Assembly (NCBI GenBank): GCA_902763505.1
Contig: CACWSO010000004.1
Span: 102,501 to 166,500, forward strand
Length of the DNA: 64,000 nucleotides
Direction: 5' to 3'
Source: an uncultured Eubacteriales bacterium
Lineage (GTDB): Bacteria > Bacillota > Clostridia > Peptostreptococcales > Anaerovoracaceae
Shown: in pieces, positions 2,697 through 42,966 of the stretch
How the letters are laid out: each line of letters starts with the position of its first letter
Position numbering within the stretch: the stretch's first letter is position 1
Position numbers and translations under genes: made by a program
The notes under the pieces: model-generated
Told to the model about the DNA's origin: nothing
What the model saw: the letters and a program-made list of their open reading frames with translations, nothing else
Database searches by the model: none

Positions 2697-2714
2697 AGCT
2701 CCTCCTGTATCTCG

Positions 2715-4130: not shown

Positions 4131-4144
4131 ATTGATGGTCTCCT

Positions 4145-5419: not shown

Positions 5420-5437
5420 ATAGCATAAACCCCTTTG

Positions 5438-6163
5438 TTACTTCTGCTGTTCCATGTACTGTTCCAGCCGTCCCATGATCGTCCGATACGCGTCTTCCAC
5501 GCCGCCCAGATCACGGCGGAACCGGTCTTTATCGAGTTTCTCTTTTGTAGCGCTGTCCCAGAGACGGCATGTGTCCGGGCTGATCTCATCGGCAAGCACA
5601 ATCGTCCCATCCGCCAGCCGTCCGAATTCCAGTTTGAAGTCGACGAGTGTTACGCCGCATTCGCTCCAGAGTTTCTGCAGTTCCCGGTTCACTGTCAGTG
5701 CGTACTCTTTGATCTGTTTGATCTCGCCAGCCGTTGCAAGTTTCAGTGCGATCGCATGGTCGTCGTTGATCAGCGGATCGCCGAGGTCATCGTTCTTGTA
5801 GGAAAACTCCACGGTCGGCGCATCAAACACGATGCCCTCCTCCACGCCGTAGCGTTTTGCAAAGGACCCCGCCGAGATATTTCTGACGATGACTTCCAAA
5901 GGCACGATTGCCACCTTCTTCACGATCGTGTCCCTGTCATTGAGCTCTTCCACGAAATGGGTCGCGACGCCCTTCGTCTGCAGATAACGCATCAGAATGT
6001 TCGACATTCTGTTGTTGATGACGCCCTTTCCTTCGATTGTTCCGCGCTTGGCACCGTTGAAGGCGGTCGCATCATCTTTATAAGATACGATCAGCAGTTC
6101 CGGATCGTCCGTCGCATATACTTTTTTCGCTTTTCCTTCATATAATTGTTCTCTTTGCTTCAT
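5438..6163 (-). CDS. purC: SAICAR synthase (phosphoribosylaminoimidazole-succinocarboxamide synthase)
   Basis: Condenses CAIR with aspartate in purine synthesis. At 241 residues it is the standard short bacterial form, starting [12 protein letters not shown] with later motifs [21 protein letters not shown] and [25 protein letters not shown] that are diagnostic of PurC. ATG at 6163 is preceded by TACGGAGG at good spacing. It is the first gene of the purine block seen here; the mobile region begins about 230 bp upstream, so any further upstream purine genes have been separated from it. Confidence 0.97.
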
Positions 6164-20894: not shown

Positions 20895-20898
20895 ATCT

Positions 20899-21093
20899 TT
20901 ATCCTTCCATCTGTGGAGCAAGGCCATAGGTGCGTTCCAGATAGTACTGTTTGCTGACTCTTCCCGGAACTATCAGATAACCCTGTTCCTTCAGTTCCTC
21001 ATTCAACTGTTTGACCATTTCGTATGCCTTTGTTCTTGATACTCCAAAATCCTTTGCTACTCTATCAGCAGTAATAAACATTTCATGTTCCAT
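20899..21093 (-). CDS. Excisionase-like small HTH protein C
   Basis: Third 64-residue paralogue (FITADRVAKDFGVSRTKAYEMVKQLNEEL ... PGRVSKQYYLERTYG), encoded immediately before the integrase (stop 5 bp from the int start), so it is cotranscribed with int. It is closer to A in its first half and shares the YYLERTYG tail with it. Position makes it the best candidate for the true excisionase or an int autoregulator. Confidence 0.8.
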   Translation of the reverse strand: MEHEMFITADRVAKDFGVSRTKAYEMVKQLNEELKEQGYLIVPGRVSKQYYLERTYGLAPQMEG

Positions 21094-27005: not shown

Positions 27006-28728
27006 CTTTCGCCACCTCCTGAGCCTTTAATAAAGCGTCCTTATAACACTCCGGAATGAGCTCGGCAGAAAGTTTTTCACCGACAATACGACCCAAAAGA
27101 ATTCCCTTCTTTGCTGTAAACCATGCGGAGAACATATCGCAGAATTCGTTTTCATCACCATCAGAAACATCCCCTAAAGATTTTGGAACATATCCATCAA
27201 GAGAAAGACCTCGTTTTTTGAAGTACCCGCGAACATAGTTTTCATCCAAGATTTCAGTTAATGCATTATCGTATAGCTCAACAGCTATATCTCTTGCTAA
27301 CTGTTGATTCCCTGTTGAAAACAGTTTCTTGACAATTTCTACTTCAAAAAACAACTCTGAAGTGAAGAAATCCCTATCCGTTTGCTCTTTCCCTTGTTTT
27401 ACATCTCCATCATATATGGCAACACTCGGAATCATAAAAGCAGCAAGCAGTTGTCTTAGTTGCTTTATAGTATTTTGCCCTTGTGCATTTATTATACAAA
27501 TGCCAAGATCATCAATTGGAATTGAAAGCTTTTCAGTAAATTGTTGAATGCATCCATACTCCGTCGCTCCTTCAACAAGTACCGCACAATGTGAGTAGAA
27601 TGCCTCTTTCAACTCAGGGAAGTGCATAATCAAATGCTTTTCTTTTGCATCTGTAATGTTTAAATCTTTTGATGCTCCACTAATTACATTGATTATTCCG
27701 TTCTCCCTGTAGAATCTGATTAAATTCCTATAGTCTCCAACAAGTGCATCTGTAGAATGAGTTACAATAATGATCTGTCCAAGAACACCATCTATATCAA
27801 AGCATTCTTTTAGCAGTTCTTGAAAGTCCTCATCCTTATTACTCAGTATGCGCTTATAATATCCGAGTAAGGAACGCTGAAGATACGGATGAAGATGCAC
27901 TTCTGGCTCGTCTATAGCCAGAATGATCGGGAGAATTCTTTTTCCTTTATCATCTATATAAAGACGTTCCTCGAAAGGAACACTTTTGCTTTTATATAGT
28001 TCCATAATGTAGCAGAGAATGCTGATAGATGCCATTGCAATATATTGCACACCTGATCCGGTTGTATCTAATCTTCTTTCCCCATCGGAAAGATAGAATA
28101 AGCTAGTTACTATATCGGACGCGTCTGAGGCAACGGATGCACCAATCTTGTATTCTCTGAAACCTTGAATACGTGAAAAATTCTCGTTAATATATTGCGC
28201 AAGTTCCTCCATGCGATCATCATTCACAAACGAGATAGTGCCATTTTGGTTTACAAAACTTTCCACAAGTCCATTCATTAGCATTCCCATGCCTTTCTTG
28301 GCATCTAATTTCAGTTCTTTGCTTGGGGAAGCTGTTGATTCATACTTGAAGTAATTGAGTTTCCTTATTTGCTTCATCGGAATATTGTCTTCTGTATCTA
28401 AGCAAATAGCTATAGGATAAGCATCTGTAATCTTTTGCTTATAGCAAATATTGACTATCTCCGGATTATCGCTATTAAAATTATCTCCAAAAAAGCCCCA
28501 CTCATGTTGGTCGAGCACGACTGTAAGAGTTACTTCTATTGGTAATTGTGGGTTATAATAGTCCTCATCATAAAATGGCTTTCCTGTGCATATGGTATTT
28601 AATAAATCCAAGAAATTACTTTTTCCAAGATTGTTTTCGCCAATGATATAGCTACACAAGGGGTTTAATTCCACGATTATTCCATCAACATTTCTATAAT
28701 TACTTATTTTGACTCGTATAATCCTCAT
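26995..28728 (-). CDS. gajA: GajA-like OLD-family ATPase-TOPRIM endonuclease (Gabija)
   Basis: A 577-residue protein, the usual GajA length. The N-terminal SMC/RecF-like ATPase has Walker A IIGENNLGKSN (28-38), the ABC signature LSDGERRLD near 217, Walker B ILAIDEPEVHLHP near 270 and IIIVTHSTD near 320. The C-terminal TOPRIM has the metal-binding Glu in AVLVEGATEYG near 385 and the acidic pair in AIYDGDVKQG near 445. GajA is a site-specific DNA nicking enzyme held off by nucleotides in resting cells. It lies 110 bp after mcrC, and may have its own weak promoter there. Confidence 0.9.
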   Translation of the reverse strand: MRIIRVKISNYRNVDGIIVELNPLCSYIIGENNLGKSNFLDLLNTICTGKPFYDEDYYNPQLPIEVTLTVVLDQHEWGFFGDNFNSDNPEIVNICYKQKITDAYPIAICLDTEDNIPMKQIRKLNYFKYESTASPSKELKLDAKKGMGMLMNGLVESFVNQNGTISFVNDDRMEELAQYINENFSRIQGFREYKIGASVASDASDIVTSLFYLSDGERRLDTTGSGVQYIAMASISILCYIMELYKSKSVPFEERLYIDDKGKRILPIILAIDEPEVHLHPYLQRSLLGYYKRILSNKDEDFQELLKECFDIDGVLGQIIIVTHSTDALVGDYRNLIRFYRENGIINVISGASKDLNITDAKEKHLIMHFPELKEAFYSHCAVLVEGATEYGCIQQFTEKLSIPIDDLGICIINAQGQNTIKQLRQLLAAFMIPSVAIYDGDVKQGKEQTDRDFFTSELFFEVEIVKKLFSTGNQQLARDIAVELYDNALTEILDENYVRGYFKKRGLSLDGYVPKSLGDVSDGDENEFCDMFSAWFTAKKGILLGRIVGEKLSAELIPECYKDALLKAQEVAKDAG

Positions 28729-28838: not shown

Positions 28839-29870
28839 TTATAGCAGATATTCTTCCACTATTTGATCTAGTTCGCCACGAATGTGAGTAAAATCTGTAT
28901 TTAGATCCAACGTACGAACGCAAATACGATTCCCACTCATCTGATATTCATCGTTTGGGACAATCTCTTCATCAGTTTTCGCATATAAAAGCATTCCTGA
29001 CACTTCATGCAGGTGTTCTTCATATTGCGCTTCTTTGTTCTTAACATAAGTGAATATCTGATAAAGGTTTCCTGAATGATAGGAACGTTTATCATACCGC
29101 ATTTGCATAGTGTGTGAATAGTATTTAGCGTCTATTATAAGGGTCTTTTCTGCATGCTCCAGCATTATATCCGACTGCATTACAGGAAGCCATTCTTTGT
29201 ACCCATCGTCCAGTTGCCATGGAATCTGGGATGCCGTTGCGGATAACTCTTTCCACTCTCTTTTGTAGTACTCTAAGATGAACTTCTCATACAGATGGCT
29301 CATCCTCTGTTCATCAATGAAGTCCATCACCTTTATAGCGCCATCTGTTTGAGTCTGTACCATACCTTTTGCAACAAAACAACAGACAGAAATCAGCATC
29401 TGGTAGACCTGATTGTTGCGATTGTAGGTCTTGTTCCAATTGATCTTGTTGACATCAAGAGTATCAACACTATCGAAGTAAACAAGCAGTCCTCTGATTT
29501 CTTTCTTTTGCTTTGGTAATATATCCGCTCTCAGCAGCAGCTGAAAAGTTGTTTTGATAATCTGATTCAGTTCCGTATTGGTGGAAAACACATCATAAGA
29601 ACAAACCATCTGTCTTCTTATGACGGATTGTGTTTTGATCGAGTCAGACACATCTATTTTCCCCTTGATAGAGGATAGATTTTCTGTTTTGGAAATATAG
29701 TCTCGCCCAATGCCCCGTTTGATCAGTGTACTAATTCCTTTGATTAGTATCTCAGCAAAAAGTTTCTGCACATTATCAAACGACTCAACATCAGATTCAC
29801 GGATGCCCTGATTCCTCAGTGTCTGAAAAGCATATGAAAGCATGTAATATATATTCTTTACCGGAATCAC
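28839..29870 (-). CDS. mcrC: McrC-like nuclease subunit (type IV restriction)
   Basis: A 343-residue McrC homologue. The PD-(D/E)xK nuclease site is visible as MQSDIMLEHAEKTLIIDAKYY near residue 240 (Asp then D-A-K), which is the family's catalytic motif. It should join the McrB GTPase encoded directly upstream (4-bp ATGA overlap) and cut DNA between recognised modified sites. It is AT-rich compared with the transfer genes, consistent with separate acquisition. Confidence 0.88.
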   Translation of the reverse strand: MIPVKNIYYMLSYAFQTLRNQGIRESDVESFDNVQKLFAEILIKGISTLIKRGIGRDYISKTENLSSIKGKIDVSDSIKTQSVIRRQMVCSYDVFSTNTELNQIIKTTFQLLLRADILPKQKKEIRGLLVYFDSVDTLDVNKINWNKTYNRNNQVYQMLISVCCFVAKGMVQTQTDGAIKVMDFIDEQRMSHLYEKFILEYYKREWKELSATASQIPWQLDDGYKEWLPVMQSDIMLEHAEKTLIIDAKYYSHTMQMRYDKRSYHSGNLYQIFTYVKNKEAQYEEHLHEVSGMLLYAKTDEEIVPNDEYQMSGNRICVRTLDLNTDFTHIRGELDQIVEEYLL

Positions 29871-31942
29871 TTGATAGAACTCCTCAATTTCTCTGCCCAG
29901 TCTCTCACCGTGGCCTGATCGTCAAACCAGTATTCATTCAACAACGGCAGCAGTTCATATTCAACAATATTCTTTAATGCCGAATCACTGACTTCTTTCA
30001 GGTTACAGAAGTAGCTGTGTCCTATGCAGAAGCCTTCCCCCAATGATGCATCATCGCGTATTGCTTCGTTCAGCTTTTTCACGCATTCAATCAGGCTGTT
30101 AAACTTTGTGCTGTCAAGACTCATTCGATAGTCAATAAACTTCTGCTGATCAAATGCTGGTTTCAGATCATAAAACGCGAATCTTCTTCTGAGGGCATAA
30201 TCCAGCATTGCCAGGCTCCTGTCAGCAGTGTTCATCATACCGATGATATAGACATTTTTAGGCACATAGAATTTCTCATCGGAGTACAGCAACTGAAGAG
30301 AGTTTTCCCTTTTGTCCTTTTCAATCAGCATAAAGAGCTCGCCAAATATCTTGCTGAGGTTTCCCCTGTTGATTTCATCTATTATGAAGAAATATTCGTT
30401 TTCTTTATCCTCTGCGGCCCTTTTGCAGAACTTATAAAAGGATCCTTTCTTTATCTCAAATCCGTTTCCTTCAGAAGCTGGTCTGAAGCCTTCGATGAAG
30501 TCTTCGTATGAGTAGCTCTGATGAAACTGAACCATCATAACGCGATCCTTGTCCTTTTCTCCCATAATAGAGTATGCGAGACGGTTAGCTGCATAGGTCT
30601 TGCCTACTCCAGGTGCTCCTTGAAGAATGACATTTTTCTTTGTATAAATCAGGTTAACCAGTGTATCATATGCTGATTCGTCAAGAAAAACTTCGTCAAG
30701 AAATTTCTCTTTACTGTATTTCTGCCATATTTCTTCCTTAACAGGTTCCACTTCCAGAGCTCCTTCAAACAAAGCCTCCAGCTTTTCTATCCTGTCTGTA
30801 TCAAATGAAATGTCGGTAAGAGTTTTCATTGCCGCCTGTCCAGGATAATCCCATTCGCCAATATAGTTCCACTCAACCTCTCGAAAGTTCTGGTAATCGT
30901 CTTCTATCTCGTCATCATAGTAGTACCCTGATGTAACAACACCGCGGCCCACGATCTTATACATACCTCTCTTTGCATAGATGACGTCACCCTCTTTGAT
31001 TTCATTTGCAAACTGCCATGTGGCCAGTGAGTCCATTTTGTAAGACTTATCTTCACCATAGACTTCTTTCATTTTCGCACGGATAGCATTCTGATTCTCA
31101 AACTCGGACAGATCTCCGAGTTCTCCCCATCCGATCCCCATAATTCCCTCAGATGAATACTCTGGCCACTTAAAAGCGTTATGACCTGGCGAATATAACC
31201 AATAATGCTTTTCTAAAACATCTTCATTACCTAATCCTGGTTCTTTGTCATAATTTCCATGATGCTTTTTTTGCTCTCCATCTATATACTGCCATGCCAT
31301 TTTGCCCAATGCTTTACCATCATATTCGCTGAGTTCAGGAAAATCACGTCTGATATTACTGTTGAATAATGCATTCAGCTGATGACATCTCATCCCCTCT
31401 TCACTGTCGTATTGGAAATGGCTCATGAGTTCTTTTAAGACAGCATTTGATCCAATGGTAATGTATTTCTCCGGATAGAAAATACTCAGAAGTTTAGTCA
31501 GTACCATAGCCATCCCCTGTAGTCGTGGATAATCTTCTAACACAAGAGGGGTCGTCTGCTTTCCTGATTCGACCAGAAAAATATAAAGGTCTTTTATAAA
31601 TTCTGGCCAGAACTCATCTATGTTAATTGCTTCATTCCCATGCTTATATGATTCTTCTTTCTTACTATAATAAACGCCATACTTCTTGGCAGTTGCTCCT
31701 CCTATGCTGAAGCCCGTTTTCTTATACTTTCCAAATTCAATTTTATAACAAAAGCTGTCTTTGGACTGCTCAGTTCCCAAACAGTACTCCTCATACGTGA
31801 GTTTTTGTATTCTGTCCAAAGGATACTCCGCTATGAAGGATAGACGTTCTTCTTCCTCTTTTTTCAAAGTCTCAAGTTCAGAATCTATTTTCTGATTAAA
31901 GTATTCTTTGAATTGTTCAAGATGCGTTTTTTGTGATTCCAT
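29867..31942 (-). CDS. mcrB: McrB-like GTPase with EVE-like reader domain
   Basis: A 691-residue protein. Residues 1-230 are helical and of unknown fold; about 245-385 (WLYSPGHNAFKWPEYSSEGIMG, KEGDVIYAKRG, IVGRGVVTSGYYYDD) resemble an EVE/PUA-like domain that in other systems binds modified bases. The AAA+ GTPase follows, with Walker A LQGAPGVGKT near 440, FHQSYSYEDFIEGFRP, the McrB signature IDEINRGNLSKIFGEL near 530 and NTADRSLAMLDYALRRRF. It translocates DNA with McrC. It is 35 bp downstream of the WYL regulator. Confidence 0.88.
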   Translation of the reverse strand: MESQKTHLEQFKEYFNQKIDSELETLKKEEEERLSFIAEYPLDRIQKLTYEEYCLGTEQSKDSFCYKIEFGKYKKTGFSIGGATAKKYGVYYSKKEESYKHGNEAINIDEFWPEFIKDLYIFLVESGKQTTPLVLEDYPRLQGMAMVLTKLLSIFYPEKYITIGSNAVLKELMSHFQYDSEEGMRCHQLNALFNSNIRRDFPELSEYDGKALGKMAWQYIDGEQKKHHGNYDKEPGLGNEDVLEKHYWLYSPGHNAFKWPEYSSEGIMGIGWGELGDLSEFENQNAIRAKMKEVYGEDKSYKMDSLATWQFANEIKEGDVIYAKRGMYKIVGRGVVTSGYYYDDEIEDDYQNFREVEWNYIGEWDYPGQAAMKTLTDISFDTDRIEKLEALFEGALEVEPVKEEIWQKYSKEKFLDEVFLDESAYDTLVNLIYTKKNVILQGAPGVGKTYAANRLAYSIMGEKDKDRVMMVQFHQSYSYEDFIEGFRPASEGNGFEIKKGSFYKFCKRAAEDKENEYFFIIDEINRGNLSKIFGELFMLIEKDKRENSLQLLYSDEKFYVPKNVYIIGMMNTADRSLAMLDYALRRRFAFYDLKPAFDQQKFIDYRMSLDSTKFNSLIECVKKLNEAIRDDASLGEGFCIGHSYFCNLKEVSDSALKNIVEYELLPLLNEYWFDDQATVRDWAEKLRSSIK

Positions 31943-31977: not shown

Positions 31978-32976
31978 CTACCTCTGTCGTTTTATCAATG
32001 ATTCTGCCATCTCAGTGATCTTTTGCACTGCAATATCTGGCCCTTTTATCATCATATCTCCATTAAACTGGAATACCCAGGCGTAAAAAGTTGGACTCAA
32101 TGATACTTCAACAGTAACTGCGAAATAATCATCGGATACCTGTTCTGTTTCCAGTTTGCTTCCAAAGCGGTCAACGATATATTTTGCAAGCTCATTCTTG
32201 ACGTTCAGTTTAACTGGCACCCGATCATATCCTTCAAACATATCAAAGATTGGCTTAGAGTAGTCATCTAGATTAAAGTCATCCGGCCGTTTTGCGGCCT
32301 TTTCATCAAGAATCTCAGGATGATACAGTCGATCTACACGGAACACAGACACATTCCTGTGCTTATCAGACCAACCAACTACATAGTAGTAATCTTCATT
32401 CCACAATAGTGCATAAGGACTTAATTCATATAATTCCCCATTACCGCGCAGAATCTCTTTCAAATCTGAATCGAATTCAGTGTACTGAAATTCAATCTTC
32501 TTCCTTCGATTTATCGCCTCATTAATTGTGTTGACAGAATAATATATTGTTTCATTTTCTGATTTAACACGGTTTGTCGCTTGAATATGTCTTCGTAAAT
32601 CCTTCCTTTGGTTCTCGCTGGCTAGCTGAGCAAGTTTTTTACCAAGGGCGTTGCTCTTTTTCTTTGTGATGAAACGGGATGAAGCCACTGCATCAATCAA
32701 AAGCTTCAACTCAGGCATTTCAAACTGTCGCTCACCCCAGTAAAACAAGTTTGGCCGACTAACTATTTTTACAATATCTAGCCCCAGATCCTGCAGGAGT
32801 TTGATGTCCCCACGTAAGGTTTTTTCGTTTGCCGGAACATCATTCTCTTTCAGGTAGTCCAGAATTTCCAATCCTGTCATTGGATGTTCTTGATCAGTTT
32901 TCTCATAAAACATTTGTGCTAGAATCAACATTCTAGACTTAATCATGTTTTTCTCTTTCGCCTCTCCTGCTGGCAT
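31978..32976 (-). CDS. WYL-domain transcriptional regulator
   Basis: A 332-residue regulator. It has an N-terminal winged helix (HPMTGLEILDYLKENDVPANEKTLRGDIKLLQDLG) and a central WYL domain (AINRRKKIEFQYTEF ... YELSPYALLWNEDYYYVVGWSDKH ... FRVDRLYHPEIL) with a C-terminal WCX extension. WYL proteins sense ligands such as single-stranded DNA and often control defence genes (for example BrxR). The start at ATG 32976 after GAGGAGGG is preferred over an in-frame upstream ATG at 33006. It leads the mcrB-mcrC-gajA-gajB run and its promoter carries a palindrome, so autorepression is likely. Confidence 0.9.
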   Translation of the reverse strand: MPAGEAKEKNMIKSRMLILAQMFYEKTDQEHPMTGLEILDYLKENDVPANEKTLRGDIKLLQDLGLDIVKIVSRPNLFYWGERQFEMPELKLLIDAVASSRFITKKKSNALGKKLAQLASENQRKDLRRHIQATNRVKSENETIYYSVNTINEAINRRKKIEFQYTEFDSDLKEILRGNGELYELSPYALLWNEDYYYVVGWSDKHRNVSVFRVDRLYHPEILDEKAAKRPDDFNLDDYSKPIFDMFEGYDRVPVKLNVKNELAKYIVDRFGSKLETEQVSDDYFAVTVEVSLSPTFYAWVFQFNGDMMIKGPDIAVQKITEMAESLIKRQR

Positions 32977-33012
32977 TTCGCCCTCCTCGCAAAAAGTGTT
33001 TTGCAACTATTC

Positions 33013-33095: not shown

Positions 33096-34346
33096 TTATT
33101 GTTCGTCAACAAACTGTTGTCGGAATGACCTTAAAAAGTCATTCCAGGAAAGGCACTCAATCAAATCTATCAGCTTGATTTCTAAAGTTTTTGCTTCTCC
33201 AATTGATGATAGTAATGAATAATAACCAACTAAATGATCAGACCTTGTTACTCTTGGATAAAGAAGAATAACTTTACTAACATTATGAATGGCTGTTGAA
33301 TATGCATTCATTTGGTATATATCTGATTCCTTTGCAAACCGACCTGGAAGTTTCCACTTTGTATCAATAATCCATTGTTCTTGCTCCGACACCTTAAGTG
33401 TTAAATCTGGTCTTAATCTGATATATTTCTTTCCATCATTTTGTCTTTCGACCATGTAATTGCCCATTTTCTGATATGTGACTTTGTTACCAAAGACAAT
33501 AGATGCTACTCGATACACAAATAGTTCATAGAGCTGCTCCATATTAAATAGCATCGTATATACTTGTGTGCTTCCTGAACTCATGGTCGCATGAAGGTGT
33601 TCTAAGAACATTCGTCCAAAAGTATATGACTCCTTCGCACGAATATTCGTAGAATTAAAGACAATGCCATAACTCAATGCAATTCTCGGATCAACGTATG
33701 AGATTTCTTCAAATGAAGGGAGAAGTTCGTCCAACATTCTCTGGTTTTGGACATCCCGTGATACCTTCGCCATTTCAACAAGACAGGTTTTTAAAAATCG
33801 GTTTAACTCATTGTCTAATAAGTATTTTGAATATCTACAATAAAACCGAGTTGGCGCAAGGATATTTTTTCTTAATTGTTGTCTAAAAACAATTTGACCT
33901 TTGACCTTATTAATATTATTCGATATTTTCATGTATTCATGCTGCATACCTGAATCCACATAAGTCTGTAATTCATACAAAAAAGACTGTATTACAATTT
34001 CAGCCAGAGAATTCTTTTTAGTTGCAACAGAAGCCTTAAACTGCCTGATAGAATTGGTCTGATGTGCAACCAACAACATCCTAATCAAAACATCTCTCAG
34101 TTTTTCATTATCAACTTCGCCGTATATCTTGGGTAGTATTTCGATAGTATAATCAGGCAACTCAATTACTCCAACATACTGTTGGGCAATTAAGCACCTG
34201 TTTCCAACCACAAAAACAGGACTATTGTCAACAACAACACTTTGTAAGTATGCAGCATCCGATGATGATATTATGTTTCGCTCCAAATCTCTGCCAGGGC
34301 GAATATATAACTTATCATACTCCCGTATGGAGACTGTAGTATTCAT
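33096..34346 (-). CDS. McrC-like nuclease of the second system (LlaJI/BsuMI type)
   Basis: A 416-residue McrC/LlaJI-R2-like protein. The N-terminal region (VVVDNSPVFVVGNRCLIAQQYVGVIELPDYTIEILPKI) is the McrC scaffold; the nuclease site is RLRPDLTLKVSEQEQWIIDTKWK near residue 325 (Asp, then D-T-K). It is the last gene of the five-gene restriction operon and starts 3 bp after the AAA+ gene. Compared with the 343-residue McrC at 28839 it has only general similarity, so this is an independent system and not a recent duplication. Confidence 0.85.
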   Translation of the reverse strand: MNTTVSIREYDKLYIRPGRDLERNIISSSDAAYLQSVVVDNSPVFVVGNRCLIAQQYVGVIELPDYTIEILPKIYGEVDNEKLRDVLIRMLLVAHQTNSIRQFKASVATKKNSLAEIVIQSFLYELQTYVDSGMQHEYMKISNNINKVKGQIVFRQQLRKNILAPTRFYCRYSKYLLDNELNRFLKTCLVEMAKVSRDVQNQRMLDELLPSFEEISYVDPRIALSYGIVFNSTNIRAKESYTFGRMFLEHLHATMSSGSTQVYTMLFNMEQLYELFVYRVASIVFGNKVTYQKMGNYMVERQNDGKKYIRLRPDLTLKVSEQEQWIIDTKWKLPGRFAKESDIYQMNAYSTAIHNVSKVILLYPRVTRSDHLVGYYSLLSSIGEAKTLEIKLIDLIECLSWNDFLRSFRQQFVDEQ

Positions 34347-34349
34347 CGT

Positions 34350-35612
34350 TTATTCACCATACACATGAAGCAATGAACTTATATTAAGCTCTGGATTTAC
34401 ACTATAATGTTTCTTATCATCTAGAAGATAATCGCCGATATAATCAAAATAACCATCAACAGTCAATGTGCTATGCTTATAAATTGGATTGTCTCTAAGC
34501 TCCCCAGCTTCATCTAGATCATTAAAAACCATTTGCACTTTTTGGAGATCACTGAAAAAGTATTCTTCAAGAAGTGGGACAGCCTTTTCTCTAATGACTG
34601 TAACTATATCGTCTGCAGTTCTTACTGACATAAACAGTGCCTGACCCAACAAATGGTTCCGATCAAGTAACAATTCTATTCTGCTGTTCATCGTGTCAAA
34701 TAGCTTTATTACATCTATTCCTTCAACATTAGTGGGATCGACCCCGTTCATTCTTAATTCATCAGCAATAATACTAGAATCCGGGACCATAGGAATAAAC
34801 TTAAAACGTCTACGTAAAGCTATATCGATTGCTCCGACGGATCGGTCCGCAGAATTCATCGTGCCAAACAAGTTTATATTACTTGGAACGACAAACGATT
34901 CCTTAGAGTATGGCAAAGTAGCTGATAATTCATTTGCCATTCCTTGTCGTTTATCTACCTCAATCAATGAAATTAATTCTCCAAAAATTTCAGAAATGTT
35001 GCCTCTATTAATCTCATCGATAAAAACAGCATACTCCTTTTCAGGATGTCTCGATGCTTTTGCGCATAGTGTCTTGAAAATGCCAGGTTTTGGGGAATAA
35101 TCAATGGAATTAGTTTCTTCTACATATTCTGGACGTATCCCCTCAATAAAATCCTCATATGAAAACGATTGATGAAATGTGACGAAAGCATATCTTTTAT
35201 CAACCTCTGAATCACTTAAAAATCGATCAAAGAAATCTGGCATACCCTGTTGAACACGAATACGATTAACATACCAAGATCCTCCCTCACATTCAAAGAA
35301 AACGCATGGAGGAGTACGTGTTACCCCTAAGGCAGAAACATCCATGTTGTGCTCTTCTAAAACCGAAATAACATTAATGACAGTACCAAGTCTCAAGCTA
35401 TCAATCTTCTGTTGTATTTCTGTTGGTCTCATTTTCCCATGGTTCTGCAGCATTATCATGGCAATCAAAATCCACTCTTCTGTATTGCTGATATATGCGT
35501 TCCTTACTTGATCATCGGATACTTGATAATCAATATAGTCACTCATCATTTCTTGCAGAAGATATGTTTTCCCCGTTCCCGGTGGTCCATAATAAATTAC
35601 ATTTTCACCCAT
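34350..35612 (-). CDS. McrB-like AAA+ GTPase lacking an N-terminal reader domain
   Basis: A 420-residue motor. Walker A (YYGPPGTGKTYLL) is at residues 7-19, so there is no N-terminal specificity domain. About 100 residues (28-140, including GKMRPTEIQQKIDSLRLGTVINVISVLEE) are inserted between Walker A and FHQSFSYEDFIEG; in the McrB at 29867 that distance is only about 30 residues. Then come VFIDEINRGNISEIFGELI and GTMNSADRSVGAIDIALRRRF. The ATG at 35612 has GAGGTG at good spacing. It overlaps no gene but starts 6 bp after the LAGLIDADG-like gene. Confidence 0.87.
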   Translation of the reverse strand: MGENVIYYGPPGTGKTYLLQEMMSDYIDYQVSDDQVRNAYISNTEEWILIAMIMLQNHGKMRPTEIQQKIDSLRLGTVINVISVLEEHNMDVSALGVTRTPPCVFFECEGGSWYVNRIRVQQGMPDFFDRFLSDSEVDKRYAFVTFHQSFSYEDFIEGIRPEYVEETNSIDYSPKPGIFKTLCAKASRHPEKEYAVFIDEINRGNISEIFGELISLIEVDKRQGMANELSATLPYSKESFVVPSNINLFGTMNSADRSVGAIDIALRRRFKFIPMVPDSSIIADELRMNGVDPTNVEGIDVIKLFDTMNSRIELLLDRNHLLGQALFMSVRTADDIVTVIREKAVPLLEEYFFSDLQKVQMVFNDLDEAGELRDNPIYKHSTLTVDGYFDYIGDYLLDDKKHYSVNPELNISSLLHVYGE

Positions 35613-35617
35613 TATTT

Positions 35618-36379
35618 TCACCTCACTACAATAGTTTTCAATCCCTTTAAAACAACAGAATTATCATTTACAATTACTGTTTCATAATTATATTCGTATG
35701 CACTTTTCATAAGATTGATCCGCCTTGGCGAAATCAATCCTATATTATTCACATAATAATCAACATCCTTTATTCTTAGTTGAGGGTTTCTTGGCCTGCC
35801 ACCTTCTTTCCTATCGCGATGGGTATTATAATTATATTGTATTCCACACATTTCAACTACTTCTGATAAAAAGGCTCCTATTTCATCAGATATGCAGTCC
35901 AATGACAACATACGGATTTTATGTGTTTTTTTATCTATATCTGCAGAGCTTCTCCCATCAAAAACACCAACAAGAAATGCCCGCTGCACCTTCCATGGTG
36001 AATTCTGAAGCGCAGTCCTTAAAGATGGTATCAGCTCGACCAACTCCCCCAACGATGTAGCTTTAAAAAAGGTCGAAAATCCGGGCATCCGATTCTTACC
36101 CGAATCCAATTCTGTGCCTCTTATGTTTTCTGCCATAACCGTTTGTCCGTTTACTTGAACAGCAATATCCCTTACTAGTTCGTAATGCTGTGCTATCTCT
36201 AACGCTGTCGCCGCTCTATAGTTATAGCGAACCGGATTAATCTTATATCTATTTCCATTGGCAGTGACTTGTTCTTCAGAAGCGAATATTCCCCCCAGAA
36301 AATAGGCAACTTTTTCTGTAAGATATCTAGAATTCATATCAAGCCCAGAATCAAAAGATACATATGCTCTATCTGTCAT
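35618..36379 (-). CDS. LAGLIDADG-like protein in a restriction operon
   Basis: A 253-residue protein with two helix motifs spaced as in single-chain LAGLIDADG endonucleases: AYFLGGIFASEE near 25-36 and RAFLVGVFDGRSS near 133-145. The second motif aligns to LAGLIDADG with the catalytic Asp (eighth position) replaced by Arg, and the first has Glu, so nicking activity is doubtful; the DNA-binding fold may be kept, as in WhiA. It sits between the cytosine methyltransferase (1 bp away) and the McrB-like motor. It may be the third restriction subunit, comparable in place to BsuMI YdiR. Start ATG 36379 after AAGGAAGG. Confidence 0.65.
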   Translation of the reverse strand: MTDRAYVSFDSGLDMNSRYLTEKVAYFLGGIFASEEQVTANGNRYKINPVRYNYRAATALEIAQHYELVRDIAVQVNGQTVMAENIRGTELDSGKNRMPGFSTFFKATSLGELVELIPSLRTALQNSPWKVQRAFLVGVFDGRSSADIDKKTHKIRMLSLDCISDEIGAFLSEVVEMCGIQYNYNTHRDRKEGGRPRNPQLRIKDVDYYVNNIGLISPRRINLMKSAYEYNYETVIVNDNSVVLKGLKTIVVR

Positions 36380-36380
36380 T

Positions 36381-37454
36381 CTACAAATCCTTCCTTTCCA
36401 TGTCATGAATTATTGCTTCGGCAACTCTCTTTGCAAGAAGCGGTGGAACCGCATTACCTACTTGTTTCATTTGAGATGTCTTTGTTCCGTAAAAACGGAA
36501 AGTGTCAGGAAATGATTGAATCCTAGCTGCTTCTCGAACAGTAATTGCCCTATCCAAAAATGGATGCGTGAATTTACCGGATGCAGGTGTATCAAATCTG
36601 GTTGTAATGGTAACTGATACATTATCAGCATCCATCCGTTCCCAAGTGCCACTATAAATAGATTTTGTTAAATGTTCGGCCGGTAGATGTTCCTTCCCTC
36701 CTTTCGGCGGAATCATTGCCATTCTTTCAAGCGCTATCTTCGAATGGTTTGTTGAAACATGACCTGATAATACATTGCTGTTTTTTCGGAGCATTTCTTG
36801 GTACTTTGATTGTGGCGGGAACCTATATTCTTGTTCCTCTTCTCCCTCGCCTGAGTTCAGGTAGTTTAAGTCACTAATTGCATCCCAAATAGTCGTTTTC
36901 CCCTCCTGTTCAGGTGGCATTGCAACCGGATCACTATCTCCCTTCTTGCCAATAACAAATGCCCTTCGTCTATCTTGTGGAACGCCATAATTCGCTGCAC
37001 ATAGAACTTCTGCATTGATAACATAGCCAAGATTTTCGAATAAAGAGATTAACTCTCTTTTGAAATAGCCTCCTTCACTAGTAAGTAGGTTTGGTACATT
37101 CTCCATAACAAAATAGGAAGGCTCAACAACGCGTACTACATCAACAAAATATCGAAACAAAAAATTTCTTTCATCATTAATAGTCTTTCTTTGGCCTTTT
37201 TGAGAGTATCCTTGGCATGGAGGGCCACCAACAACTGCTGTTATCTTCCCTTTGTAACAACCAAACGTTTCTTCAATCGGTAGTTTTTTTATGTCTTCCA
37301 CTATCATGTTTGGATTTTTCCGATTCTTAATATATGCTTCCGCAATTGATGGATCATATTCGTTTGCTAATACTACCTTGAAGCCAGCTTCCTCAAACCC
37401 AAGAGATAACCCTCCAGCGCCTGCAAAAAGATCAATTATTTTTAAATCTGACAT
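36381..37454 (-). CDS. DNA (cytosine-5) methyltransferase
   Basis: A 357-residue m5C methyltransferase with all main motifs: I IDLFAGAGGLSLGFEEAG (7-24), IV VVGGPPCQGYSQKGQR with the nucleophile Cys80, VI FVMENVPN near 117, VIII QDRRRAFVIGKKG, and X QVGNAVPPLLAKRVAEAI near 330. It protects the host from the cognate nuclease. The stop is 1 bp from the LAGLIDADG-like gene, and the start overlaps the second methyltransferase by 13 bp. The target-recognition region between VIII and IX is short, and specificity cannot be read. Confidence 0.95.
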   Translation of the reverse strand: MSDLKIIDLFAGAGGLSLGFEEAGFKVVLANEYDPSIAEAYIKNRKNPNMIVEDIKKLPIEETFGCYKGKITAVVGGPPCQGYSQKGQRKTINDERNFLFRYFVDVVRVVEPSYFVMENVPNLLTSEGGYFKRELISLFENLGYVINAEVLCAANYGVPQDRRRAFVIGKKGDSDPVAMPPEQEGKTTIWDAISDLNYLNSGEGEEEQEYRFPPQSKYQEMLRKNSNVLSGHVSTNHSKIALERMAMIPPKGGKEHLPAEHLTKSIYSGTWERMDADNVSVTITTRFDTPASGKFTHPFLDRAITVREAARIQSFPDTFRFYGTKTSQMKQVGNAVPPLLAKRVAEAIIHDMERKDL

Positions 37455-38194
37455 AGTTCAGATAATCTCCTTTCAGATATCTCACAGTATTCAGTACTTA
37501 TTTCGGCGCCAATGAATTTTCTGTTATTGGCAAGGGCTGCAACTCCAGAACTACCCGCCCCCATGAACGGATCAAAAACTATATCCCCTTCGTTTGAAAG
37601 CAGCTTAACAAACTGTTCTAGCAATGCTACAGGTTTTTGTGTAGGATGCTTTCCATGCTTTTTTTCTCCAGATGGTGCAACGGCTGTCTCAAAGAAATCA
37701 TGAATAGCCCTTCCGCCATTGTTGAATGTGCCTGTATGTTTTTTATATGTGAAATAGATCCAGGTTTCTGTAGAATTAATAAAGTGTAAATTCATGTTCC
37801 GGGGCATCGGGTTTAGTTTATGCCAAATACCTGTTGTCTTGTAGTAAAAGCCATGCTTCGTTGCCAGTTGAATAATTGTTTCAACTTTAATAATCGACAT
37901 AAACACTATCATGGATCCACCAATTCGAGATACTCTCGCACATTCTTCAAACATAGTGTCCATCGATTCTTTCCAGGAATCAAAATCCAAATCGTCCCAC
38001 CCCGCGGCACCAAAGAAATTAGGACGCATAGCCTTCAGATTAGTTGCTCTATTTTTCATAAAGAGACCAAGATTGTATGGTGGATCTGTAAGTATCAAAT
38101 CCACTGAGTCATTCGGCAATTTTTGAAGCACATCCATGCAATCTTCATTTACTATTCGATACGGCTTTTCTTCAAACATGTTCTCCAAACCCAT
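37442..38194 (-). CDS. Beta-class DNA methyltransferase (N6-adenine or N4-cytosine)
   Basis: A 250-residue methyltransferase with the beta-class order: catalytic motif IV LILTDPPYNLGLF at residues 33-45, a recognition region in the middle, and the SAM-binding motif I VFDPFMGAGSSGVAAL near 210. DPPY suggests adenine N6, but N4-cytosine cannot be excluded. It is the first gene of the operon, behind a strong promoter, so modification is made before restriction. Pairing with an m5C enzyme suggests two-strand protection of an asymmetric site, as in LlaJI-like systems that use two methylases. Confidence 0.92.
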   Translation of the reverse strand: MGLENMFEEKPYRIVNEDCMDVLQKLPNDSVDLILTDPPYNLGLFMKNRATNLKAMRPNFFGAAGWDDLDFDSWKESMDTMFEECARVSRIGGSMIVFMSIIKVETIIQLATKHGFYYKTTGIWHKLNPMPRNMNLHFINSTETWIYFTYKKHTGTFNNGGRAIHDFFETAVAPSGEKKHGKHPTQKPVALLEQFVKLLSNEGDIVFDPFMGAGSSGVAALANNRKFIGAEISTEYCEISERRLSELCQI

Positions 38195-38283: not shown

Positions 38284-38312
38284 ATTATACAACAATACAT
38301 GGACACTGACAA
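38284..38312 (-). promoter_or_regulatory. Promoter of the five-gene restriction operon
   Basis: TTGTCA, 17-bp spacer, TATAAT on the minus strand, 90 bp before the first methyltransferase gene. The remaining 38313-38457 carries no gene and no clear terminator for the transfer operon. Confidence 0.8.
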
Positions 38313-38457: not shown

Positions 38458-40017
38458 TTAATACTTTGGCACCGCATATCCATATATTGTACTACTTCCA
38501 ACGCTATAGGACCCACGCCTAACCGCATCACCTCTATTGCCTTCGATGGTATATACAGTCCTACCATCACACCGTTCTACCAAGCCCACATGATCCCTGG
38601 TCCCGTTGGCATACCAGTCGATGATTATAATATCTCCGGGCGAAGGCTTGTAGTTCCTGCTCTGCCAGTGATGATGTGACCTGGCCCAGTCCACGATATC
38701 CGGCACATAGGAGAACTTCGGGACTGTTCCGGATTTGATATATCCGCACTGGTTCTCACACCAGCTGACAAAGCATCCGCACCAGCTTACTCTGTTGTTA
38801 TATCCGTACCAACTCCAGAATTTCTTCCCGCCATGGTTTCCCAACTGCTGCTCGGCAACCTTGACAATGGCCGTATTCCCTACGCCGATATTGTAACTGC
38901 CGTATGGATAATACCTGAGCACATGGGCCGGATATTGCTTGTCTCCGTACCCTTTCCACCCATGCTTCTTTGCCTGCATATTGGAAAAGGCAATAGCATT
39001 GGCAACGGTATATCCACCATCTCTCTTGATGGCCCAGGAGATATATCCGTTTCCATAGTTATATCCCTGCAGAGCCAGCCGGATGTGATTCATATCTATT
39101 GGGCTTTTACACCTGGCCTGTTTCAGACAGTCCGCCAGATAATGCACGCCACAGTTGATGGAATACTCCGGATCCTTGATACTGTTCGGCGCATGAGAGT
39201 ATTTCTTATTATACGGGCTTTCAGAGCACTGCATGGGATCACTGCCTCTTCCGCCGGACTCCTGCATCATGACTGCCTTGAGCAGTTCCACGTATTCACT
39301 GATTCCGTACTGCTGCACGTATTTGCTGATCAGTGGCGTATAAGCCTCCACCTCCGGACTAACCTCGATATAGTTGTCAGCGCTGTCATCTCCGAAAGTA
39401 TAGAAGGCCGCCCCAAAGAGCACGAAGATCAGGATAATCACGACAGCAATGCTTCCCCCTGCAGTCAGGGACGCAAGCAAAAGCTTCGTACTCGCCAGCG
39501 TCGCCCTGATCATCCGCAATGTTTTCACCGCAGCCTTTCTTGACATTCTTGCTGCCCGCTGTGTATGCTTTTGCATCTGATACTGTCGCTTCGCCAGGCG
39601 GATCCCTTCAGCCTGCGGTTTCCTGACGGTTTTTAGTGGTCTTGATACCCTCTTTCCCCGTGATAAAAAGGCTGTCTCTCTGGTCTTGATGACAGGTGCT
39701 GTTCGTGCTGCTTCTTCACCCGCCATCTTCTGTTCTGCCTGCCTTCTCAGGACGCTCTCCTTTGACCGGATCCTGCGGTATCCTGACTTTGCAGCATCTG
39801 CGCTATATGCTGCGACCCTCCTCGCACTGCGTCCTGTCATCTGTCCCATCTGATCTGTCGCTTGGGAAGATGCCTGCTCCCTGCCCTGCTCCTTGGAGTG
39901 CAGCATATCCTCCTTGGTTCTTGCATGAACATCCTTGATATGTGATGTCATCGCAGAAGCTCGATCGATCGTTCTGATCGTCCCCTTGTTGCTTTGTCTT
40001 GTCTTTATATCAGCCAC
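38458..40017 (-). CDS. CwlT-like cell-wall hydrolase of the transfer apparatus
   Basis: A 519-residue two-domain peptidoglycan hydrolase. The N-terminal 170 residues are basic, followed by one membrane span (LLLASLTAGGSIAVVIILIFVLFGAAFYTF). Then comes a lysozyme-like domain with its Glu in AVMMQESGGRGSDPMQ near 250, and a C-terminal CHAP/NlpC-type domain with the nucleophile Cys in VSWCGCFVSWC near 410. It opens the wall for the conjugation channel, like Tn916 Orf14. The start is GTG at 40017 after AAGGAGGTG. Confidence 0.92.
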   Translation of the reverse strand: MADIKTRQSNKGTIRTIDRASAMTSHIKDVHARTKEDMLHSKEQGREQASSQATDQMGQMTGRSARRVAAYSADAAKSGYRRIRSKESVLRRQAEQKMAGEEAARTAPVIKTRETAFLSRGKRVSRPLKTVRKPQAEGIRLAKRQYQMQKHTQRAARMSRKAAVKTLRMIRATLASTKLLLASLTAGGSIAVVIILIFVLFGAAFYTFGDDSADNYIEVSPEVEAYTPLISKYVQQYGISEYVELLKAVMMQESGGRGSDPMQCSESPYNKKYSHAPNSIKDPEYSINCGVHYLADCLKQARCKSPIDMNHIRLALQGYNYGNGYISWAIKRDGGYTVANAIAFSNMQAKKHGWKGYGDKQYPAHVLRYYPYGSYNIGVGNTAIVKVAEQQLGNHGGKKFWSWYGYNNRVSWCGCFVSWCENQCGYIKSGTVPKFSYVPDIVDWARSHHHWQSRNYKPSPGDIIIIDWYANGTRDHVGLVERCDGRTVYTIEGNRGDAVRRGSYSVGSSTIYGYAVPKY

Positions 40018-40059
40018 AGCGGCACCTCCTTCATCTGTTTTTCGGACTGTCAGTAACAG

Positions 40060-40088
40060 TTGCTTTTTCTGCTCTGTCTATGTATTCT
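40060..40088 (+). promoter_or_regulatory. Plus-strand promoter for the 114-residue gene
   Basis: TTGCTT, 17-bp spacer, TATTCT, with an AGGAGGTG ribosome binding site starting 10 bp after the -10. Each hexamer matches consensus at four of six positions. Confidence 0.5.
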
Positions 40089-40110
40089 GTGCTTGGCAGG
40101 AGGTGCCATT

Positions 40111-40455
40111 ATGTATATGAATGAAAAGACCTTTGAGCTTTCAACTGAGCCAATAGCGCACGGAGTACAAATCGATGATCTTATTGCTACAACGATACAG
40201 ACTTTGAACCTGAAGGGCTATAAAACAGCCTGGTGCTGCAGTGGTCATGTAAAAGAAGGTTTCGATAGCGCATATATCCAATTTGAATTTGGGGAGATCA
40301 CCCCGGAGGAATTACCTTCCGGATGGTTCTGGGAAGAGGATGGTCATATGCAGTATCAATATGCATCATGCTCTCCGGATGATCTGAAACAGGAAATAGA
40401 AGAAGTGATGGACGATTTGTTCAAGTGGGCAGAATCCCTGCCTTCGACATATTGA
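40111..40455 (+). CDS. Hypothetical protein, one of two plus-strand genes in the window
   Basis: A 114-residue protein with start ATG 40111 after AGGAGGTGCC; the frame is open for 17 more codons, but without a ribosome binding site. LKGYKTAWCCSGHVKEGFDSAYIQFEF (residues 33-59) gives it a Cys-Cys-x-Gly-His motif; the rest is acidic. The family is not recognised. It runs against the transfer operon, between virB4 and the cwlT-like gene, with its own promoter and terminator, so transcription of the transfer genes would make antisense RNA to it. Confidence 0.75.
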   Translation: MYMNEKTFELSTEPIAHGVQIDDLIATTIQTLNLKGYKTAWCCSGHVKEGFDSAYIQFEFGEITPEELPSGWFWEEDGHMQYQYASCSPDDLKQEIEEVMDDLFKWAESLPSTY

Positions 40456-40465
40456 GTCAATGTAT

Positions 40466-40490
40466 CTGGAGGCAGTGTTGCTACCTCCAG
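40466..40490 (+). terminator. Terminator of the plus-strand gene
   Basis: CTGGAGG and CCTCCAG form a perfect 7-bp stem followed on the plus strand by TTTCTGTTT, 10 bp after the stop. No U-run follows on the minus strand, so virB4 transcripts should pass. Confidence 0.7.
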
Positions 40491-40497
40491 TTTCTGT

Positions 40498-42966
40498 TTA
40501 TTCAGCCGGTCTCAGATACTTATCCACCAGTTTCTCGTACTCTTCCGGCGTTCTGGCGATCTCACGTATCTTCTCCAGTATTGCCTGCTCCTTCTTCGTC
40601 ATTACAGGCTTTGCCTCAGCCTTCAGATTCTGTTGGAAAAACCCTTCCCCAGGCTTGCTTGTCATAAGCTGATAGAGCTTTGTATCCTTCGGGAAATTGT
40701 TCTCAAAAGGCACCAGGGATGATCCAACCTTGATCAATCCGTGCCCCGCGTCCACGTTGGTGATATACGAAAGCTGCCTGTCGGAAATATTCAGGAGCTT
40801 GGCAAGCTCGATCCTGTCCGTCGCCGCCTGGTTAAGCATCACTATGAATTCAGAGTTTGACAGCATGGTCCTGGCTGTATGGGACTGCAGCAGGTCCAAC
40901 ACGTTCTGCGTGATGCCCGTACAAAATGCTCCATACTTTCTGACCCTCTTCCAGAGTTTGAACAGGAACTGCGCTGAGTACTCGTGCATGAAGAGCAGAT
41001 AGATCTCATCGATGAAGACGAAAGTCTGCTTACCCTTCTGCCTGTTCTGGGTGATACGGTTCAGGATGGAATCCAATATGACCAGCATCCCAATAGCCCT
41101 GAGTTGTTCGCCCAGTTCCAGGATGTCATAGCAGATCAGGCGGTTATTGGTGTCCACGTTGGTCTGTTTGGCGAAGGTATTCAGGGATCCTCTCGTAAAA
41201 AGTTCCAGTTCCAAAGCCAGTGACTTTGCTTCCGGTTCCGGCTGCTTCAGCAGTTCTTCCCGAAAGTCCTGCAGTGTCGGCGGTGTTCCCTGATAGTTGC
41301 CCTGCTGATAGAATCGGTAGACGTTCTCCGTGCACCGGTCGATGATGGACTGCTGGCCTTTTGCGAACTTATGCCCTGCAATGATCTGCTCGCAAAGGCT
41401 CTGCAGGAACTGTGACTTCTCGATGATTGGATCTGTTTCTCCGTATTCCCTGTTCATATCCATAGCGTTGATATGATTGGATGATGTCGCCGATATCTCG
41501 ATAACCGAGCCTCCCAACGCTTTGATCAGAGGCGCGTATTCACGCTCAGGATCCACGATGATGATGTCCGCATCCGTTCCCAGAATCAGATTGGTGATCT
41601 CATTCTTTGCCGTAAAAGACTTGCCGGATCCGGATACGCCCAGAATGAAGGAGTTACCGTTCAGCAGCCTCCTTCTATCCGCAATCATCATGTTCTTACT
41701 GATGACGTTCTGCCCGTAGTAAATGCCGTGACGGTCATAAACCTCCTGTACCCGGAACGGCATGAGGACTGCCAGTGACTCTGTGGTCAACGTGCGGAAG
41801 GCATCGATCTTACGCGTGCCGTAGGGCAGTGTGGTCTTCAGCCCGTCCAGTTGCTGCTGTTTCAGGATGCTCATCTGACACAGCTTCTTCCTGACGATGG
41901 TCATGATCTCCTCGGTATCGTTATCCAGCTGTTCCTTGGTATCTGCCGTGTGTACCAGTGTCATGACAGCAAACATCATGCGCTGATCCCTGGTGGTCAG
42001 ATCCTCCAGAAAGTCTCTGGTCTCTTTTCGCTGCTGCTCGATATCATAGGGCAAAACCGCAGAGAAGTTGTTGTTCATGTTTTGCCGTCTCTGCCAGTTG
42101 GCGGCATTCGTCTCTACGCCCAGAAGCCTTTGCTCAACGAACTTCACCGCCTCATCGGTGGGGATCGGAATCACATCCACGGAGAGCATCAGGTTCCGAT
42201 TGATATCCGTAATCTCCGCGATCATGTCATCCCGGATATACGCGGCATAATCGCGCAAAAGCAGGACGCGTCCAAAGCGATCTCCAATTTTGAAATAGTC
42301 GCTGTGGTTCTCATAGATGTCCGGGCAGATATAGTCCCGAAAGTCATGTCCCTTCTTCATGTGATCCTTCAAGTCAAAGTAAAAGCTGGTTTCTTCTCCG
42401 GTCCGCATGAAGTCATGGATGATTCTGAGGCGTTCTACCGCAGTGATCTCCGTGCACACGGATCCAAGTCTTGCAAAGTGAGCCACCAGATCCGCGCCCA
42501 CTCTGGCGAAGTAGATACGGGCATCCTCGATATTCTTACGTACCACCGAGATGGTCACGTATTTATCCTGGATGATGGCGTTGCTGCCGGTCGCTTTGTC
42601 CAGCAGCATCTGGTTGTACTCCTCACGGTAGTCATTGAGGCCGTCCTCCTGCATCCGGATCAGGATCTGCTCTTCGAAATCAAGTCGGTTCAGCCTGCGG
42701 TTATTGATGGTGATCTTCGTGGTGCTCCCGGAATCCAGTGAATTCAGAAGTTCCGAATACTCCAGAAACATTCCCTCCTTGTCATCACGGGAGGCTACCG
42801 CGTAGTTGATGTCCGTAAAACGATACATTTTACTGAACTTGTTTTTGCCATTCAAAAAGATCCCGTCAGGCCAGATGGTCTGAATCGGGATCATGTCCTG
42901 CACCTTCTTCGGGATGATGAAAGCTTCCCTATCCTGCTTCAGGATGTTACTTAGCGTTTTGATCAT
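40498..42966 (-). CDS. VirB4-family conjugation ATPase
   Basis: An 822-residue cytoplasmic ATPase that powers the type IV secretion channel (VirB4/TraE/Tn916 Orf16 group). Residues 1-400 form the N-terminal VirB4 domain; the ATPase domain has Walker A FILGVSGSGKSFTAKNEI near 445, IIVDPEREYAPLIKALGG, and Walker B FVFIDEIYLLF near 640, followed by a conserved Gln-rich motif GITQNVLDLL. Full length. Its start overlaps the PrgI-like gene by 20 bp. Confidence 0.95.
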   Translation of the reverse strand: MIKTLSNILKQDREAFIIPKKVQDMIPIQTIWPDGIFLNGKNKFSKMYRFTDINYAVASRDDKEGMFLEYSELLNSLDSGSTTKITINNRRLNRLDFEEQILIRMQEDGLNDYREEYNQMLLDKATGSNAIIQDKYVTISVVRKNIEDARIYFARVGADLVAHFARLGSVCTEITAVERLRIIHDFMRTGEETSFYFDLKDHMKKGHDFRDYICPDIYENHSDYFKIGDRFGRVLLLRDYAAYIRDDMIAEITDINRNLMLSVDVIPIPTDEAVKFVEQRLLGVETNAANWQRRQNMNNNFSAVLPYDIEQQRKETRDFLEDLTTRDQRMMFAVMTLVHTADTKEQLDNDTEEIMTIVRKKLCQMSILKQQQLDGLKTTLPYGTRKIDAFRTLTTESLAVLMPFRVQEVYDRHGIYYGQNVISKNMMIADRRRLLNGNSFILGVSGSGKSFTAKNEITNLILGTDADIIIVDPEREYAPLIKALGGSVIEISATSSNHINAMDMNREYGETDPIIEKSQFLQSLCEQIIAGHKFAKGQQSIIDRCTENVYRFYQQGNYQGTPPTLQDFREELLKQPEPEAKSLALELELFTRGSLNTFAKQTNVDTNNRLICYDILELGEQLRAIGMLVILDSILNRITQNRQKGKQTFVFIDEIYLLFMHEYSAQFLFKLWKRVRKYGAFCTGITQNVLDLLQSHTARTMLSNSEFIVMLNQAATDRIELAKLLNISDRQLSYITNVDAGHGLIKVGSSLVPFENNFPKDTKLYQLMTSKPGEGFFQQNLKAEAKPVMTKKEQAILEKIREIARTPEEYEKLVDKYLRPAE

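Follow-up and report, generated by a model that had tools for sequence, protein, structure and literature searches.

LlaJI, of the Lactococcus plasmid pNP40, and LlaJI-like systems combine two methyltransferases with an McrB-like motor and an McrC-like nuclease and restrict unmethylated DNA. LlaJI itself is described as having two 5-methylcytosine (m5C) methyltransferases and recognising GACGC, and in the reported band shift R1.LlaJI binds this site specifically and R2 does not (PMC1459862). The same report gives BsuMI and LlaI a small McrB (343 and 337 amino acids (aa), respectively) within three-gene restriction cassettes, which may be a precedent for a specificity subunit apart from the motor. 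According to PMC8989522, PcaRCI of Pectobacterium joins a methyltransferase to an McrBC-like pair and likewise restricts unmethylated DNA. Both McrB-type motors with cognate methyltransferases (LlaJI, PcaRCI) and three-gene cassettes with a small McrB (BsuMI, LlaI) are thus on record in these reports. Escherichia coli McrBC, a Type IV enzyme, shares the architecture of motor and nuclease but is described as reading methylated DNA by means of a fused N-terminal domain, without cognate methyltransferases (PMC11090510, PMC8989522). Those readers of the McrBC family that the reports consulted name (ADAM/DUF3578, YTH, EVE, and B3) are presented as fused to the motor, sometimes to the nuclease, and not as separate subunits. 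This study concerns a five-gene locus of related architecture in a 64,000-nucleotide stretch of DNA (the window) from an uncultured Eubacteriales bacterium (GCA_902763505.1, contig CACWSO010000004.1, positions 102,501 to 166,500), in which a LAGLIDADG-like protein, here referred to as LAG, stands beside a motor that has no N-terminal domain.

The locus is one run of five intact genes on the reverse strand (38194-33096) that encode, in transcription order, a beta-class methyltransferase, an m5C methyltransferase, LAG, McrB, and McrC. Its features are as follows.

37442..38194, reverse strand: beta-class DNA methyltransferase, 250 aa, with DPPY motif (PF01555, 1.3e-39)
36381..37454, reverse strand: m5C methyltransferase, 357 aa (PF00145, 3.9e-74)
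35618..36379, reverse strand: LAG, double-motif LAGLIDADG-like protein, 253 aa, lacking the catalytic acids of both motifs; proposed as the site reader
34350..35621, reverse strand: McrB-like AAA+ motor, 423 aa, without N-terminal domain, with an insertion of ~100 aa and the GTPase signature MNSAD (AAA_5, 6e-15)
35178..35564, reverse strand: McrB segment bounded by Walker A and the FHQS motif, 129 residues, containing the insertion (the rival candidate for the reader)
33096..34346, reverse strand: McrC-like nuclease, 416 aa, with PD...DTKW present (PF10117, 9e-63)
38284..38312, reverse strand: putative promoter TTGTCA-17-TATAAT preceding the beta methyltransferase gene (11/12 consensus)

A preliminary description of this DNA, made from the letters alone, had read five overlapping or abutting genes of these classes, and this reading holds: all five frames are intact and the four partners of LAG match Pfam families. 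The two methyltransferase genes share 37442-37454; the m5C gene runs to the end of its stop codon at 36381, and LAG, as a frame of 253 aa, begins at 36379 (a start at the ATG at 36406, farther upstream, would lengthen the protein to 262 aa); LAG and McrB overlap over 35618-35621; and a gap of 3 base pairs (bp) separates McrB from McrC. McrC also matches the E. coli McrC model, with a score below the model cut-off. For the single strong promoter of that description, the 11/12 site at 38312-38284 is a candidate, but the region as a whole does not exceed shuffled sequence in its number of promoter-like sites (19 versus 19.3). With presumably cognate methyltransferases, a motor of the NxxD kind, and a PD-(D/E)XK nuclease motif all present, the locus is, by its sequence, a Type II-like restriction-modification (R-M) system with an McrBC-like restriction enzyme, and what appears new in it is the LAGLIDADG-like subunit. 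PcaRCI is described with one Dcm-like methyltransferase and two restriction genes, and no LAG is reported for it in PMC8989522. Nor was any description of a LAGLIDADG subunit in an McrBC-like or other R-M or anti-phage system found in the open-licence literature, which agrees with the earlier statement that no described system with such logic was known. A census of McrBC systems announces a separate paper on the methyltransferase-associated McrB branches, which could cover LAG systems (PMC11090510).

The best explanation of the whole, to which a probability of about 0.65 is given, is a mobile Type II-like R-M system in which a disarmed LAGLIDADG-like reader loads McrB and McrC. The beta-class enzyme and the m5C enzyme would each methylate one strand of a single asymmetric site, and LAG would bind this site in its unmethylated state, methylation blocking the binding. 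LAG would then load the McrB motor, a GTPase by its signature, and McrB would act in a complex with the McrC nuclease to cut the DNA. LAG would, in other words, be a separate subunit in place of the motor-fused N-terminal reader found in LlaJI-like systems with the same methyltransferase pair. If true, this would be a new kind of reader for the McrBC family, and a homing-endonuclease scaffold would have taken over targeting in a defence enzyme.

LAG is most likely the site reader because its methyltransferase pair is common with LlaJI-like systems, because LAG-type motors lack an N-terminal domain, and because LAG and the fused reader exclude each other. The comparison rests on seven distinct LAG loci, namely, the window, G291 (locus L009, found again as L026), G460 (L010), a Herbinix metagenome-assembled genome (MAG; L025), a Gastranaerophilales MAG (L027), and the viral contigs L028 and L034. 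A second type of system, seen in 14 loci, has the same beta and m5C pair together with an McrB-like R1 with an N-terminal part of ~300 aa or longer, and it has no LAG. Since the nuclease (R2) of one of these loci, L029, is 56% identical to R2.LlaJI of pNP40, these loci are named LlaJI-like. Where examined with Pfam, in L029 and L030, the nuclease also differs from that of the window: it matches RE_LlaJI (PF09563), whereas McrC of the window and of L028 match PF10117 only. A profile of the RE_LlaJI-type nuclease finds it clearly in eight of the 14 fused-reader loci and weakly in four (L032, L041, L077, and L087), and does not detect it in two (L037 and L094). The two methyltransferases of the window are 49-69% (beta) and 51-74% (m5C) identical to those of 13 other rows; between the LAG and LlaJI-like types (7 by 7 rows), identity is 49-66% and 51-68%, respectively. 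Over these 14 rows, the m5C target-recognition region, with boundaries set by us, matches the catalytic part in conservation (0.74 versus 0.75), which argues for one common site.

The fused reader appears to belong to this pair. The N-terminal part of R1 is 39-69% identical to that of L029 in seven of nine other loci (28% in L037 and 25% in L041), but no similarity to the N-terminus of R1.LlaJI could be detected, hhalign included, and the methyltransferases of LlaJI differ as well; the reader therefore seems to go with the methyltransferase pair. Comparison of LAG with the fused reader by hhalign also gave nothing, so a common origin of the two is unsupported. In all seven LAG-type motors only 7-11 residues precede Walker A, and the N-terminal specificity domain characteristic of the LlaJI family is absent. 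Among 21 distinct pair-bearing loci with restriction genes in view, seven have LAG, 14 the fused reader, and none both (two more loci are cut by contig ends); none of 164 loci searched with both profiles, each built from most of the rows that it finds, has LAG and the fused reader together. The readers of L031 and L076 are identical, so that the 14 loci with the fused reader may stand for only 13 elements. L076 lies in Streptococcus phage phiD12 (3448-8370), where the same methyltransferase pair accompanies a LlaJI-type restriction half, and may serve as a comparator. The proposal of the preliminary description that LAG reads the sequence for the motor is supported best by this common pair.

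The history of the pair suggests how the two types may be related. The methyltransferases come first, as in the window and L028, in 13 of the 14 LlaJI-like loci, and in L041 the restriction genes are divergent. In a tree of the joined methyltransferases (14 rows, some of them, as in the alignments, stop-to-stop frames with extra N-terminal residues; L075-L077, L082, L085, L087, and L094 are absent), the window and L028 group among LlaJI-like rows (92/94) and are separated from the remaining LAG rows, and the approximately unbiased test rejects one common origin for the LAG-type pairs (p-AU 0.028, 7 versus 7 rows). Read most simply, these sequences point to a methyltransferase pair that stayed constant while the restriction halves next to it were exchanged. 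We lean slightly towards the further proposal that LAG is a disarmed, domesticated homing endonuclease serving as an exchangeable specificity subunit, swapped with an unrelated fused reader, such that two unrelated readers would have converged on one site. One methyltransferase pair with two unrelated restriction halves would, if true, be a natural experiment in which reader exchange and McrBC-type loading are directly testable.

The chemistry of the methyl marks can be approached by analogy. The closest solved relative of the beta-class enzyme is M1.HpyAVI (5HEK, E 6.3e-31), described as an N6-adenine methyltransferase that acts on one strand of GAGG/CCTC while a partner m5C enzyme acts on the other (PMC5173035, PMC3936762). 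The beta-class enzyme of the window probably makes N6-methyladenine (m6A), and the site of the pair is probably asymmetric, with an A methylated in one strand by this enzyme and a C in the other by its m5C partner. Transferring the recognition site of M1/M2.HpyAVI itself (GAGG/CCTC; PMC3936762) was considered and dropped, as the relation is too distant.

Fixed linkage ties LAG to its presumed partners. The preliminary description had pointed to a neighbourhood survey of homologues, and in this survey the McrB, McrC, beta, and m5C genes accompany LAG in all seven distinct loci; LAG is never an intron, an intein, or a freestanding gene there, and none of the seven has it outside the five-gene locus. 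L035 and L036 (one relic) and L038-L040 (weak beta-like matches) were left out of this count, and L026, L078, L086, and others are second copies. Two gene orders occur, with the methyltransferases first in two loci (the window and L028) and LAG first in five, and in both orders LAG directly precedes mcrB. The partner motifs are kept in all seven loci: DPPY in the beta-class enzyme; PCQ, ENV, and QxRxR in the m5C enzyme; PD...D(T/A)KW in McrC; and MNSAD or MNTAD, the GTPase signature, in McrB. The linkage also bears on the idea that the locus is a Type IV, modification-dependent McrBC system with unrelated methyltransferases as neighbours. Such a system would fit the PF10117 match of McrC, its sub-threshold match to the E. 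coli model, and the NxxD kind of McrB signature; however, the methyltransferase pair is linked in seven of seven loci across two gene orders and is common to LlaJI-like systems, and restriction of unmethylated DNA by an McrBC-like enzyme is documented for PcaRCI (PMC8989522). We regard a Type IV system as very unlikely.

The assignment of LAG to the LAGLIDADG proteins is considered quite probably right on the evidence of profile comparisons. The window protein matches LAGLIDADG_3 (PF14528) below threshold (E 0.013-0.014, 16 bits against a cut-off of 22.5), and the LAG proteins of L034, L025, and L027 have sub-threshold matches at the same place. The homologue of L009 passes the cut-off (9.1e-5, 23.1 bits) and passes that of Hom_end (PF05204) as well (1.8e-4, 22.0 against 21.1). 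No LAGLIDADG family of Pfam matched LAG of L028 or the LAG fragment of L010. In profile alignments, none of 100 column shuffles per comparison reached the score of the C-terminal half of LAG with a set of 21 WhiA proteins, or that of either half with L065, a freestanding LAGLIDADG protein; with a set of inteins, 1 of 100 shuffles scored as high for the C-terminal half and 14 of 100 for the N-terminal half. The N-terminal half gave nothing by hhalign against WhiA or against the C-terminal half, and internal symmetry is thus unsupported. On these comparisons LAG looks descended from a homing endonuclease. Matches of LAG to centrin structures (best E 0.05, at the DGRGSID stretch) were set aside as a chance resemblance to EF-hands.

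LAG has lost the acidic residues of both motifs. In the second motif, FLVGVFDGRS, position 8 is R143, and Arg occupies this position in six of six full-length homologues (FDGR or IDGR), in keeping with the Asp to Arg change that had led to the protein being called catalytically degraded. That description had covered the second motif only, but the first has lost its acid too: an ungapped alignment of L065 with the window (AYWLGFIYADG versus AYFLGGIFASE) puts Ser at position 8 in the window, and Ala is found in the five other full-length proteins. Position 9 of the first motif is E, N, or D across the full-length proteins. If the register is shifted by one, position 8 is acidic in three of six (the window, L027, and L028), and no acid is conserved either way. 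The loss is, as far as these sequences go, fixed in the LAG family while the partner enzymes keep their motifs, which argues that LAG is kept, though not as a usual LAGLIDADG nuclease. That LAG is nevertheless a cutting or nicking enzyme, i.e., a second nuclease beside McrC, would agree with its LAGLIDADG similarity and with the Glu, Asn, or Asp at position 9, but is hard to reconcile with Arg and Ser or Ala at position 8 of the two motifs in every full-length protein, and is considered highly improbable.

The resemblance of the C-terminal half to the LAGLIDADG part of WhiA raises a different possibility, namely, that LAG regulates the operon in the manner of WhiA or of a C protein, delaying the nuclease until the site is methylated; R-M systems often need such timing control. 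WhiA contains a degenerate LAGLIDADG scaffold within a DNA-binding protein (PMC3781837) and had been put forward as the precedent for a dead LAGLIDADG fold that binds DNA. This precedent is weak: the LAGLIDADG part of WhiA is reported to add affinity, but WhiA, a transcription factor, binds its sites mainly via its helix-turn-helix (HTH), and the LAGLIDADG part gives no footprint alone (PMC3781837). In contrast, no HTH family was matched by LAG in a Pfam scan of the window protein and its homologues, and the 253 aa of LAG fall short of the roughly 317-349 aa of the WhiA rows. Moreover, LlaJI-like loci with the same methyltransferases have no LAG, the position of LAG directly before mcrB is kept in both gene orders, and a regulatory LAG would leave the motor without an obvious reader. 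A regulatory role is therefore judged improbable.

Several points weigh against LAG as the reader. Both its proposed role and its presumed fold come from comparison of sequences. The three good hhalign cases have low absolute probabilities, of 4-29%, and whole-LAG comparisons with intA, L052, L054, L059, and L060 (0.15-1.0%) lie little above those with four unrelated control profiles (0.10-0.84%). Only one of seven LAG members passes a Pfam cut-off, and sequence and profile searches of PDB gave LAG no LAGLIDADG entry, with weak matches only. The rejection of a single origin is a moderate result, the tree includes two long rows (L037 and L041), and the branch that puts the window and L028 with LlaJI-like rows (92/94) is unstarred. 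LAG co-varies with the methyltransferases and McrC as any linked gene would, and less strongly with McrB (Spearman 0.50, p 0.058). In L010, LAG and McrB lie ~350 bp apart, LAG being cut there by the contig end. Finally, McrB itself offers a candidate reader: the spacing between Walker A and FHQS is 125-130 residues in all seven LAG-type McrB proteins versus 16-44 in ten LlaJI-like and other McrB proteins in which both motifs were found, and GTPase insertions are rated as likely specificity domains in the McrBC census (PMC11090510).

The main alternative is accordingly that the ~100-aa insertion of McrB reads the site and that LAG is an accessory loader or clamp. Similar insertions (Walker A to FHQS 136-152), only loosely alignable, occur in the McrB proteins of L017, L018, and L019, which have large, different N-terminal parts, and the McrB of L018 also carries MrcB_N (E 3e-47), a reader of modified cytosine; the insertion thus looks like a general feature of one McrB branch. 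Three copies of the insertion scanned alone matched no Pfam family above cut-off. We consider this alternative unlikely. The statement of the preliminary description that the motor has no reader of its own stands for its N-terminus, where so few residues precede Walker A, and has to be qualified for the insertion behind it.

The distribution of LAG is sparse. LAG was found in one of 100 relatives, namely, the genome of the window, and credibly in three of 391 genomes of the class, that genome included, out of seven matches in all; the four further class matches have E 0.007-0.01 (G267, G298, G441, and G208), and those of G298 and G441 were rejected as their neighbourhoods look unrelated. Among 398 genomes of the phylum, the genome of the window was joined by one doubtful match, a 36-aa frame with stops in G810. 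A scan of the contigs of one genome for each of 84,980 species, which requires short exact peptide patterns and misses distant members, found three LAG loci, one of them G291 again. Searches of plasmids and phages found no relative of LAG, nor did single-protein and A1 scans of viral contigs; L028 and L034 are the two viral contigs that carry it, and scans with two smaller LAG alignments added none. In L034 the LAG system (728-5843) lies near genes that look by eye like a repressor and replication genes, and the system seems to travel on phages too. A relic occurs in the viral contigs L035 (2473-4034) and L036 (120-1681), where a beta methyltransferase is followed by the first ~114 codons of an m5C methyltransferase that run into a piece of McrC, as if the middle of a LAG system in the gene order of the window were deleted.

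In the window, the locus belongs to a defence cluster that lies between a tyrosine integrase-like gene (19803-20927) and conjugation-like genes (38458-42966), all named by eye from their translations; the latter include a lysozyme/CHAP-like protein and a VirB4-like ATPase. The cluster looks like the cargo of an integrative conjugative element. Beside the LAG locus, a second McrB/McrC pair of another branch is present on the reverse strand (28839-31942), with a 691-aa McrB that has a long N-terminal region and a 343-aa McrC (PF10117). The 691-aa McrB has PADLOC matches to PD-T4-1 and PDC-S02 and is without the LAG-type insertion. A WYL-domain regulator is encoded between the two McrBC operons (31978-33006, reverse strand), and beyond the second operon, on the same strand, PADLOC identifies a Gabija pair, consisting of a GajA-like gene (26995-28728, E 1e-189) and a GajB-like gene (25194-27005, E 6e-205).

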